A DNA stretch of 64,000 nt from Chryseobacterium oryctis. GTDB taxonomy: Bacteria; Bacteroidota; Bacteroidia; Flavobacteriales; Weeksellaceae. A model generated the notes under the pieces. That model ran no database searches, had not been told where the DNA came from, and saw nothing but the letters and a program-made list of their open reading frames with translations. The stretch is from contig NZ_JAPDHV010000001.1 of NCBI RefSeq assembly GCF_025971925.1, forward strand, positions 186,001 to 250,000, read 5' to 3'. A program made the translations under genes and the position numbers. Below, one piece after another: positions 6,234 through 10,075 of the stretch; position 1 is the first letter of the stretch; every line of letters begins with the position of its first letter.

Positions 6234-8042
6234 TTAATTATCCTTATATGTGTTTACAAGTTTATCGAGATTGAGACTTCTGGCCGAAGCATCAAAAATT
6301 TCTCGATACGTTCCGTTGATTTGAACAAGCTCATCATGAGTTCCACTTTCTACAACTCTACCTTTTTTCATCACGTAAATTCTATCCGAATCTAAAATTT
6401 GAGATAAAGAGTGCGAAATAATAATTACAGTTCTGCCTTCTTTTATGGCGTCTAAAGAATTTTTAATCTGCTCCGTCGCAATAGCATCAAGACTTGCGGT
6501 AGGCTCATCGAGGAAAATAATCGGAGGATTTTTCAAAAACAATCTTGCAATAGCTATTCTTTGTTGCTGACCTCCTGAAAGTTGTGTAGCATCATGTTTA
6601 TAACCTTCCGGCAAATCTAAAATCTGCTCATGCAAATAGGCTTTTTTTGCAGCTTCCTGAATTTCTTCAAAACTGGCATTCATATTTCCGTACCTGATAT
6701 TATCTTCAATACTTCCCTGAAAAATATGGTTTTTTTGAAGCACCAAACCCAAATCATCACGAAGAAAAGTATTATCATAGTCATTCAAATCTACTCCATC
6801 CAACAAAATTTGTCCTGATTCCGGAAGATAAAATTTACACAATAGATTAATTATAGTAGATTTTCCTGCTCCACTTAACCCAACCAGAGCTGTTGTTTTT
6901 CCGTTTTCTATTGTCATGGAAACATCGTGTAAAGCCTGAGTTCCGTTAGGATAAGAAAAATTAATATTGTTTAATACAAAATTGCCTTTAATGTCTTTTT
7001 CTACAAAATTTCCGTTCGGTTCTTTTTCGTTGTCAGCATTTAAAATATCAAAATATCCTTCTGCATAAATCATCGCGTCATTCATATCATCATAGATCCT
7101 ATGTAACTGACGAATAGGCGCAGAAACATTATTGAAAAGCATAATATGAAGCATAATTGCACCAATGGTCATTTGCTGGTCTAAAACCAAATAAACCGTC
7201 AAAAGGATAATCAAAACTACTCCAAACTGCTCGATAAATGTTTTTAAACCATCATAAATAAAATTGGTTTTTCTTGTAAACATCTGACTTTCCATTAACT
7301 GCATTTGCAAATCATATTGTTTTTTTCCTTCAAACTTCTCACGAACAAAACTTTTAATAACCATAATCGAGTTAATTAAGTTTAATAATCCCGAAGTTTT
7401 TTGCTCACGCTGATTTCTTAAAGTTCTTCTCACTCCACCCAGTTTTTTTGCCTGTAGAGAGCTTATATAAAAGTAAATCGGAACAATAATCGTAGAAACC
7501 AACCCAACATACACATTTTGCATATACATGATAATCAATGCAATAATCGCATTTGAAAACAATGGAAGTATATCAATAAAAAAGTTCTGGACTAATCTTG
7601 TTAAACTTTCAATTCCTCTATCAATTCTTATTTGAAGTTTCCCTGATTCATGGTTTTCATCATTAAAATAGGCGACTCTATAAGTCAGGATCTTATCAAT
7701 TGCCGATTGAGCCAAAACTGAACTCACATTAATTCTAATTTTTTCACCATAAAATTTCTGCCCGAAATTGATGAAAATATTCAACAGCTCTTTTCCTAAT
7801 AAAATAATGGAAATCACTACCAAAATATGAATGCCTTCAGACATAGGATGAGGTAAATGAGTGAGCTTGGTAACTTCATCAACTGTATATTTTAGCACAA
7901 TTGGGTTCACCTGCGCTGCTAAAGCTCCCAAAAACGTAAGAAATAAAGTTCCGTAAATCATTAAACGATAAGGTCTAATGAATGGAACCAATTGTTTATA
8001 TATTCCTAATAAAGTGACTGTTCTGTTGAATGGTTTTGACAT
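6234..8042 (-). CDS. ABC transporter, fused permease and ATPase (exporter type)
   Basis: A half-transporter of 602 residues that would work as a homodimer in the inner membrane. Residues about 20-310 hold six membrane helices (ABC type 1 exporter fold). The ATPase follows, with Walker A GLSGAGKST near residue 390, signature LSGGQQQR, Walker B IIFLDEPTASLD and the switch histidine in IIISHSLS. The chosen start is MSKPFNRT; the longer frame to 8078 runs into the terminator hairpin of lptB. The substrate is unknown; lipid or drug export are the usual roles of MsbA/LmrA-like proteins. Confidence 0.82.
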   Translation of the reverse strand: MSKPFNRTVTLLGIYKQLVPFIRPYRLMIYGTLFLTFLGALAAQVNPIVLKYTVDEVTKLTHLPHPMSEGIHILVVISIILLGKELLNIFINFGQKFYGEKIRINVSSVLAQSAIDKILTYRVAYFNDENHESGKLQIRIDRGIESLTRLVQNFFIDILPLFSNAIIALIIMYMQNVYVGLVSTIIVPIYFYISSLQAKKLGGVRRTLRNQREQKTSGLLNLINSIMVIKSFVREKFEGKKQYDLQMQLMESQMFTRKTNFIYDGLKTFIEQFGVVLIILLTVYLVLDQQMTIGAIMLHIMLFNNVSAPIRQLHRIYDDMNDAMIYAEGYFDILNADNEKEPNGNFVEKDIKGNFVLNNINFSYPNGTQALHDVSMTIENGKTTALVGLSGAGKSTIINLLCKFYLPESGQILLDGVDLNDYDNTFLRDDLGLVLQKNHIFQGSIEDNIRYGNMNASFEEIQEAAKKAYLHEQILDLPEGYKHDATQLSGGQQQRIAIARLFLKNPPIIFLDEPTASLDAIATEQIKNSLDAIKEGRTVIIISHSLSQILDSDRIYVMKKGRVVESGTHDELVQINGTYREIFDASARSLNLDKLVNTYKDN

Positions 8043-8134: not shown

Positions 8135-9196
8135 TTATCCTTCGTAATGATAAGTTGTCAAATAATGCAATTCAGGCTTGCTTGCAGCTTTTGATTCGGC
8201 TTCTGCCTGTTCTAAAGAATATTGAGAATTGATTTCCTTTTTCTGAAACACAAAAGAATTATTTGCGTTTTTATCAACAACATCATTAAATATATGTTCA
8301 AGCTCTGAATTTGCCAACGATGCAAAACTAATATCTTCAAAACCATACATCAATCTTAGATTATCAATCTGCCCAAAATTATCATCCACAAAACTTTGCA
8401 ATTGAGATTTTGAATCAAAATTTCCTGCCCAAATATTATAAGCATAGGTCTTAGTTTTTGGTTTATCCAAAATACTCTGATAAACAAAATTTTCACCAAG
8501 ATACGCTTCTCTTACCTGCGGATCATTTGCCAAATCTTCGGGAAGACCTTCTTTTAGGATTTTCCCTTCAAACATAATGTATGTCTTATTAGTAATCGCT
8601 AACGTCTGTTGAACATTGTGATCGGTGATTAAGATTCCTATATTTTTATCAACCAAACTTCTTACAATTTTCTGAATATCTTCAACTGCAATTGGGTCTA
8701 CCCCTGCAAAAGGCTCATCCAAAAGAATAAAGTTCGGACTTGTTGCCAAACAACGTGCAATTTCCGTTCTTCGCCTCTCTCCTCCCGAAAGAAGATCTCC
8801 TCTATTTTTACGAACATGTTGCAATGAAAATTCTTCAATCAGCTCATCACATTTTATCTGCTGTTCACGTTTTGAAAGTTTCGTCAACTGCAAAACTCCC
8901 ATAATATTTTCTTCCACAGAAAGCTTTCTAAAAACAGATGCTTCCTGAGCAAGATATCCAATACCCTTTTGAGCTCTTCGATACATCGCATCGGATGTGA
9001 TTTCCTGCTTATCAAGAAAAATTCTACCTGAAGTGGGCTTAACCAAACCTACAATCATATAAAACGATGTCGTTTTCCCTGCTCCATTTGGACCAAGCAA
9101 CCCAACAATTTCTCCTTGCTGAACCTGTACAGAAACGCCTTTTACAACTTTTTTAGGACCGTATTCTTTGATTAAGTTTTCTCCTCGTAAAATCAT
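8135..9196 (-). CDS. lptB: LPS export ATPase LptB with extra C-terminal domain
   Basis: ATPase of the LptB2FG complex, which pulls lipopolysaccharide out of the inner membrane. Residues 1-240 are a full LptB: MILRGENLIKEYG, Walker A GPNGAGKT at 35-42, signature LSGGERRR, Walker B FILLDEPFAGVD, H-loop ITDHN, and the usual ending REAYLGENF. LptB normally stops there at about 240 residues. Here the frame continues for about 110 more (YAYNIWAGNFDSKSQLQSFV to HYLTTYHYEG), which resembles the Imm22 (DUF4284) family opening 'iWiGnf'. The upstream ATG at 9220 is less likely than MILRGENL. The gene has its own terminator; other lpt genes are not in the window. Confidence 0.85.
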   Translation of the reverse strand: MILRGENLIKEYGPKKVVKGVSVQVQQGEIVGLLGPNGAGKTTSFYMIVGLVKPTSGRIFLDKQEITSDAMYRRAQKGIGYLAQEASVFRKLSVEENIMGVLQLTKLSKREQQIKCDELIEEFSLQHVRKNRGDLLSGGERRRTEIARCLATSPNFILLDEPFAGVDPIAVEDIQKIVRSLVDKNIGILITDHNVQQTLAITNKTYIMFEGKILKEGLPEDLANDPQVREAYLGENFVYQSILDKPKTKTYAYNIWAGNFDSKSQLQSFVDDNFGQIDNLRLMYGFEDISFASLANSELEHIFNDVVDKNANNSFVFQKKEINSQYSLEQAEAESKAASKPELHYLTTYHYEG

Positions 9197-9346: not shown

Positions 9347-10075
9347 ATGGCAACCAATAAAGAACTCACAGAATTAATGGCATTAGACCTTGGTCTTAAT
9401 ATCGTTAACAGGCGACCTTACGCAAAAGAAGTTTTCAAATGGCAGGATATCGACTTACTTCCACATTCATCAACAGATACTCTACTTTGCGAAATTTTTG
9501 AATGGAATGGAAGAAATTGGCGAACAACAGGTAATAATTTAATCGGTTTTTTATTTTCAGGAGAAAATTTAACTCATATAAAAGAACAACTTATCAATGT
9601 TCCGAAAAATCCTGCATTGATTCCTGATTTTGAATTTACAAAAGAAAGCATGATAGAATATGGACTTTCACTACCTTCACTTTTCAACATCGGAATCAAT
9701 GGAAATATTAAAAACTTAAAAGATTTTTCAATAAAAGTAAATGGTGTTACAAAATCAAGAATAACAAATATAGATTCTCCTGGGGTTGAAATTCTGAGAA
9801 ACTATTCGGAGTTTACTCAAAGTAGGTCTAAAACGTATCGAAAAAATGTGAAGTTCAATTATTTAAGCACATCACTATTTTATGCCGAAAGTGTAGAAAT
9901 TTATCTTGAAAAAGAATCAGCTGTTTCTTTAGATATTAGTTTTCAAACTCAAAATATTGAAATTGAAGCTAAAACAGATACCGATACCAAGAAAAACTTC
10001 ATTTTAAAATATACAGGAAACCAAGCCCCTTTTGCTGCAAAATTTACAAAAGGTAAAGACTTTGATATTTCTTAA
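9347..10075 (+). CDS. Unknown soluble protein, beta-rich
   Basis: I do not recognise this 242-residue protein. It has no signal peptide or membrane helix, so it should be cytoplasmic. The first 100 residues are mixed alpha/beta. Residues about 112-235 look like a run of long amphipathic beta strands (INGNIKNLKDFSIKVNGVTK, VEIYLEKESAVSLDISFQTQ, KNFILKYTGNQAPFAAKF). The layout resembles pore-former or lipid-binding sheets; a distant gasdermin-like fold is one idea that I could not test. It stands alone between divergent lptB and convergent hemB, so the context gives no function. Confidence 0.65.
   Translation: MATNKELTELMALDLGLNIVNRRPYAKEVFKWQDIDLLPHSSTDTLLCEIFEWNGRNWRTTGNNLIGFLFSGENLTHIKEQLINVPKNPALIPDFEFTKESMIEYGLSLPSLFNIGINGNIKNLKDFSIKVNGVTKSRITNIDSPGVEILRNYSEFTQSRSKTYRKNVKFNYLSTSLFYAESVEIYLEKESAVSLDISFQTQNIEIEAKTDTDTKKNFILKYTGNQAPFAAKFTKGKDFDIS

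Follow-up and report, generated by a model that had tools for sequence, protein, structure and literature searches.

A conserved C-terminal domain at the end of the LptB CTD in Chryseobacterium and part of its family

LptB of Chryseobacterium oryctis does not end where the ATPase ends, but continues for more than a hundred residues. What is this segment, and what might it do on the protein that drives LPS export? The locus lies in the window analysed here, the whole 64,000-nucleotide stretch at positions 186,001 to 250,000 of contig NZ_JAPDHV010000001.1 (assembly GCF_025971925.1). A first-pass annotation, made from the sequence alone, had likened the segment to the Imm22 family and had proposed that it could guard LptB, bind a partner or be a plain fusion.

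The lptB gene occupies positions 8138-9196 of the minus strand and encodes a protein of 353 residues, starting with the ATG at 9196 and ending at the stop codon at 8135-8137. In the minus-strand reading the frame is open to this stop without a break; the program-made ORF starts 8 codons upstream of the ATG, at a TTG. TIGR04406, the LptB equivalog, matched protein residues 3-238 with 359.2 bits (curated cut-off 240), and the match spans positions 2-238 of the 239-position model, which places the protein in the LptB family. PF00005 also matches the core. From the extent of this match, LptB is complete by residue 238, and the coordinates in the first-pass annotation, which put its end at about residue 240, are correct. 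The ATPase core comprises residues 1-237 (8486..9196, minus strand). About 115 residues follow in the same frame (8138-8482), close in length and position to the C-terminal extension of about 110 residues noticed before. This segment, hereafter the tail, occurs once in the C. oryctis genome.

Downstream, the 3′ end of lptB is adjoined by a gene for an MsbA-like ABC exporter (6234-8042, minus strand; TIGR02203 348 bits, below the cut-off of 602), which was also seen in tail-less and tail-bearing relatives. The gene divergent from lptB (9347-10075, plus strand) had no Pfam match at E ≤0.01 and no NCBIfam match at E ≤1e-5. Elsewhere in the C. oryctis genome two LptF/LptG proteins scored over the PF03739 cut-off. 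In one of them (G000:C21:126600-127928) 443 residues cover 353 model positions, which indicates a large insertion compared with the family model.

The search of Chryseobacterium genomes found the tail in 98 of 98, C. oryctis included, with 75-90% identity in the other 97. In one genome (G060) the tail match contains a TAG, and in a 75% complete assembly (G063) it is split over two frames. The best 80 of 107 confirmed relatives were kept as named loci, and all 80 are Chryseobacterium. Second tail copies in the genus were looked for in ten of the further weak matches (E 0.005-1); the ORFs at these places gave short, weak profile matches, with a best full-sequence score of 12.5 bits, and were treated as chance. 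Chance read-through is ruled out by the presence of the tail in all 98 genomes and by synonymous differences in the tail that far exceed the non-synonymous ones.

Within the family, Weeksellaceae, whole LptB was searched against 120 genomes, 115 of which matched at 1e-60. The match extended to residue 331 or beyond in 43 LptB genes, which were scored as tail-bearing, and stopped at residues 241-274 in the 72 without a tail. The tail-bearing genes fall into 15 of the 31 genus labels that have an LptB match. One label (g23) was counted as tail-bearing solely through a fragmented assembly (G185). There, an 8 kb contig (G185:C261, L147) carries a tail-bearing lptB under an otherwise tail-less genus label, and represents either a mis-sorted contig or exchange between genera.

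For wider searches a profile was built from 38 tails, picked among 68 representatives. Against 196 genomes of the order it gave 23 matches at E ≤0.01: 20 were strong and all belonged to the same family, and three, outside the family, were marginal (E 0.004-0.0085, 33-62 profile positions). Against 296 genomes of the phylum it gave seven matches, all inside the family. Whole LptB matched in 197 of 198 genomes of the phylum sample; among the matches listed, only the three same-genus genomes align to the tail end, and LptB of other genera aligns no further than about residue 236-309 of the query. The order and phylum searches thus rule out a tail common to Flavobacteriia or Bacteroidota. The tail is a property of part of one family, constant within the genus. 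Its occurrence in all 98 Chryseobacterium genomes and in 15 genus labels of the family refutes the sporadic, recent fusion that the first-pass annotation had in mind. That annotation had also named an opposite outcome, a tail shared by all Flavobacteriia LptB and devoid of Imm22 similarity. This did not hold either: 72 of 115 LptB genes of the family are tail-less, no strong match was seen outside the family, and a weak similarity to Imm22 exists.

Selection was assessed over 80 genes, those of the window and of 79 of the 80 named loci. The tail had a pS of 0.734 and a pN of 0.092. Its pN/pS was 0.126, as against 0.034 for the core, a rough comparison since synonymous sites of the tail are near saturation (1043 of 3160 pairs below 0.70). 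The tail is under purifying selection. It begins with a linker, VYQSILDKPKTKT (residues 238-250, 8447..8485, minus strand), in which Tyr239 and Gln240 are invariant in the alignment of 38 tails. The most conserved segment is a loop, GFEDISFASLAN (residues 285-296, 8309..8344, minus strand), whose mean major-residue frequency of 0.88 is the highest of the tail segments. We consider this loop a candidate contact surface.

AlphaFold2 was run with the tail as the only input (window and 63 loci) and with full-length input (window and 32 loci). The model of the tail alone had a mean pLDDT of 76.5 and a pTM of 0.65, with elements in the order strand-helix-strand-helix-strand-helix-strand; pLDDT fell to 53 in block 51-60, and the GFEDISFASLAN loop was of low confidence. 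In the full-length model, blocks with a pLDDT of 87-92 make up most of the tail, with 55-68 in its middle; the ATPase part had a mean of 48, a quality that does not allow the tail to be positioned on LptB. The models and the VIA-align comparison indicate a folded C-terminal domain at residues 251-353 (8138..8446, minus strand), which is predicted to fold on its own as a small ferredoxin-like alpha+beta domain. The C2 domain of the ABC ATPase MetN has a ferredoxin-like, ACT-type fold. VIA-align returned many ferredoxin-like chains, with a best Z of 6.3, below the family-identifying level (Z <8). The matches were unspecific, including ferredoxin-like, ACT, S6 and AsnC-family chains; ACT-domain chains scored Z 5.5-5.9, among many unrelated ferredoxin-like proteins. 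Foldseek of the tail model found no match at E ≤0.001 in the PDB or viral libraries. The ACT/NIL-type Pfam family of MetN C2 was absent among the matches of the window tail and the 38 tails at E ≤10, a range in which HMMER filters drop most matches above 0.1.

The point of attachment is the end of an element that has been studied in E. coli. There, LptB ends in a CTD helix (V230-L235) and a CTD loop (G236-L241), which touch Walker A and the switch helix; Y234, L235, G236 and F239 are described as needed for function, and some CTD changes, C-terminal extensions or tags as disturbing the closing or reopening of the ATPase dimer and impairing LPS transport (PMC6703430). With numbering matched to the residues of PMC6703430, the counterpart in C. 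oryctis is DPQVREAYLGENF, residues 225-237 (8486..8524, minus strand). Y232, L233, G234 and F237 correspond to the four E. coli residues, and are invariant in the 52 LptB rows compared. The linker of the tail starts right after F237, the counterpart of E. coli F239, and the invariant Tyr239 stands at the place of E. coli L241. The protein shares with the LptB of LptB2FG that TIGR04406 describes the full ATPase core, the CTD helix and the CTD loop, including the essential Tyr, Leu, Gly and Phe; it differs by the roughly 115 extra residues.

Does the core differ between LptB proteins with and without the tail? The core was screened for residues kept in more than 75% of 25 tail-bearing and in less than 25% of 24 tail-less LptB. 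Only positions 227 and 230 emerged, both in the CTD helix. Position 230 (8507..8509, minus strand) is Glu in 25 of 25 tail-bearing and in two of 24 tail-less proteins, the other 22 having Lys, Gln or Arg. After tree correction the pattern was not significant: counting supported branches, there were 2 and 4 independent pairs, which gave p 0.5 and 0.25. With relatedness accounted for, the association between Glu230 and the tail in these alignments is suggestive only.

Our tentative interpretation is that LptB has gained in the tail a well-established accessory domain, specific to the lineage, which tunes the ATPase cycle or the assembly of LptB2FG. The short conserved linker would hold the domain at the end of the CTD loop, an element that, from the E. 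coli work, affects both closing and reopening of the ATPase dimer. The two copies of the tail, one per LptB, would each lie close to Walker A and the switch helix of their ATPase, and would most likely tune the ATPase cycle or LptB2FG assembly. Possible routes are packing on the CTD helix, tail-tail pairing, and use of the conserved GFEDISFASLAN loop to bind a ligand or partner. The sequence analysis establishes that the domain is there, is conserved, is attached at this point and is predicted to fold by itself. We infer the contact with the CTD, as well as any regulatory effect, any ligand and the mechanism.

The likeliest reading, tuning of the LptB cycle or docking of a partner, has a parallel in the layout of MetN C2. 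C2 of MetN dimerises and props the NBDs open, and the C-terminal domain of ModC, similarly placed and of different fold, stops cycling, as reported in PMC10710835. Both are regulatory domains, and the likeness lies in their C-terminal position on an ABC ATPase (PMC10710835), but MetN and ModC belong to importers with known ligands, and no such Pfam family matches the tails. MlaF, the ATPase of the envelope lipid transporter MlaFEDB, also bears a C-terminal extension, which wraps around a neighbouring subunit (PMC7790496), whereas the tail is predicted to be a folded domain of about 100 residues. In the titles and abstract openings of openly licensed LptB papers we found no description of the tail domain.

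The tail could instead serve to dock a cytoplasmic or membrane partner specific to the clade, such as a flippase factor or a factor of lipid A/LPS synthesis, and have little direct influence on the ATPase cycle. This is possible, on the unlikely side. It would explain why the best-conserved segment is a low-confidence loop, as expected of a contact surface, and in the window, as in several relatives, the next gene after lptB in the same orientation is that of the MsbA-like exporter. However, this neighbour also follows tail-less lptB (L157, L214) and is missing beside many tail-bearing genes, and no co-occurring partner was identified.

The history of the tail bears on a third reading, that it is a neutral or merely stabilising fusion, kept since its removal would disturb an adapted CTD. 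In three lineages (g3, g16, g18) LptB is tail-less, yet the first residues of the linker are kept (VYQDI, VYQDF). In the other 24 tail-less LptB that were read, the final five residues are of the kind RFEKI, RYEKY or TYQQI. In one locus of the three lineages (L201, genome G114) the lptB stub and the reading frame that follows it, the one with KIYTKTGDKG, overlap. Because linker residues remain and the L201 lptB end overlaps the next gene, these three lineages seem to have lost the tail, leaving a stub, and the tail would thus be dispensable somewhere. The lptB end in L201 looks as if a deletion removed the tail.

Trees gave a mixed picture of the gain. In the LptB-core tree (52 rows) p was 0.094 for the tail and stub lineages as one clade and 0.056 for the tail lineages alone. 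The RpoB tree (30 rows) gave p 0.011 against one clade; the RpoB+RpoC tree was poorly resolved, with labels mixed. A single gain followed by several losses would fit, and so would transfer of lptB between genera. Distances between tails follow those between cores (Spearman 0.50 over 23 rows; Mantel test, 3 of 999 equally high), and since these distances agree, tail and core have largely travelled together. The tail distances are 5.5 times the core distances.

C-terminal additions to LptB are found elsewhere as well. Fifteen LptB genes of the phylum were fetched, mostly for their long open frames, and 14 were readable (all but G454). Eleven of the 14 end 5-8 residues past the CTD Phe. In another Bacteroidota family, LptB of G408 (G408:C1:4104000-4107500, L294) has an extension of 126 residues after the CTD, unrelated-looking in sequence, and two genomes with the same family label, G513 and G492, have 34 and 32 residues past the CTD. 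A C-terminal extension as such is not unique to this group. These extensions, and the finding that E. coli depleted of lptB can be rescued by LptB with a His tag at its C-terminus (PMC5548808), indicate that the LptB C-terminus tolerates additions.

The stub lineages, the faster divergence of the tail and the unrelated-looking extension on at least one other Bacteroidota LptB are all compatible with a neutral fusion. Purifying selection on the tail argues against it, as do the W, G, F and loop residues that are invariant or nearly so across 38 tails and 15 genus labels. We regard a neutral or stabilising fusion as rather unlikely.

The resemblance to Imm22 was followed with several profiles. 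The sole Pfam family touched by the window tail alone was PF14112 (DUF4284, Imm22), with E 0.26 and 12.5 bits. Of 38 tails, 28 touched PF14112 below its cut-off, the best with E 3.5e-4, which at that scale is also under 27 bits. Ten tails were viewed singly, and nine matched with 12.6-20.5 bits against the cut-off of 27 (best E 9.1e-4). The PF14112 matches seen were confined to positions 2-34 of the 121-position profile, and neither the window tail nor any of the 38 tails was seen to reach the curated cut-off of 27 bits. Other families gave matches in fewer tails: BH0509 (NCBIfam) weakly in 12 of 38 (best E 0.0012; 33 residues in the window tail), and Pox_C4_C10 (Pfam) in six of 38 (best E 0.0025). 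PHROGs contained nothing of note for the window tail. We found no mention of DUF4284 in the openly licensed literature.

A second profile was made from 16 stand-alone Imm22 proteins, 15 from the genus and one from another family of the order. Compared with the PDB, it found no convincing relative (one match, E 0.71), and an Imm22 chain was absent from the VIA-align matches listed for the tail, which does not exclude an Imm22 fold. The profile-profile score between the 38 tails and the 16 Imm22 proteins was 39.5, whereas 200 column shuffles reached at most 22.7 and the reversed tail scored 13.2. With hhalign, tail columns 10-40 alone scored 39.2 (maximum of 60 shuffles, 16.1). Columns 38-119 scored 19.5 against a shuffle maximum of 17.6, columns 45-119 19.8 against 19.2, columns 38-90 18.4 against 19.6, and columns 68-119 12.4 against 20.0. 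Most of the signal thus comes from a stretch of about 25 residues that forms the first strand and helix, YAYNIWAGNFDSKSQLQSFVDDNF (residues 250-273, 8378..8449, minus strand), and the remainder is at or barely above the control. A YGFED string is aligned between tail and Imm22, and that part alone is not clearly significant.

The likeness resides in the pattern (I/F)W-x-G-N-F-x-S ... F-V-(D/E)-(D/E) of this strand and helix. Imm22 is characterised by a conserved W, a Y and an acidic residue (PMC3482391). The W is nearly invariant in the tail, but the acidic D-x-D-F-x-E block of stand-alone Imm22 has no aligned counterpart there, and the tail is fused to an ABC ATPase. In 40 genomes of the genus the Imm22 profile found the stand-alone protein in 39 (all but G008) and eight weak extra places (E 0.03-8), five of which were LptB tails, four of them within profile positions 1-24 and one reaching 54. 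The LptB tails of the other 35 genomes, C. oryctis included, missed E 10 with this profile. The stand-alone protein of C. oryctis (G000:C18:448960-449331; L168 1480-1878) has 132 residues and scores 36 bits with PF14112; an ORF nearby reads like what is presumably the end of DNA polymerase I. One clear copy per genome in 39 of 40 genomes is not the pattern of a sporadic polyimmunity gene.

The likeness to Imm22 is genuine, though weak, and by curated criteria the tail falls outside that family. The first-pass likeness therefore stands for the first 25 or so residues, which beat all shuffled controls, but not for the rest, which is at about control level, nor for membership. From the profile comparisons, at least the strand-helix unit of the tail may well go back to a common ancestor with a protein of Imm22 type. 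We consider an immunity role unlikely, and no support was found for a domain that guards LptB. Polyimmunity genes are not known to be constant in a genus and co-inherited in the way that the tail is with lptB. It is highly improbable that the tail is a captured Imm22-type domain still binding or sequestering a nuclease-type toxin, or guarding LptB from attack, even with its Imm22-similar first residues, its share of the weak secondary Imm22-profile matches at E ≤10 and the listing of Imm22 by comparative genomics next to several toxin families, as the immunity partner of several toxins (PMC3482391), since the tail is constant in the genus, lacks the acidic block, stays below the PF14112 cut-off wherever seen and, in the window, has no PADLOC match.

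We return to an accessory domain that tunes LptB or its assembly. In a more specific form, which we judge unlikely, the added cytoplasmic domain, partly an Imm22-type module, would act as a sensor for a ligand or partner and control when the LptB dimer reopens. We know of no counterpart of such an allosteric LPS exporter among the Lpt systems; if this form were true, one would exist in part of one flavobacterial family. The LptB complex is an antibiotic target (PMC10794137, PMC10794144). With a conserved domain of about 115 residues placed by the lineage itself at the end of the CTD, these bacteria offer a natural experiment on the motor of LPS export: removal of the tail would probe the control of dimer opening, and whether regulation of LPS export at the motor is possible.
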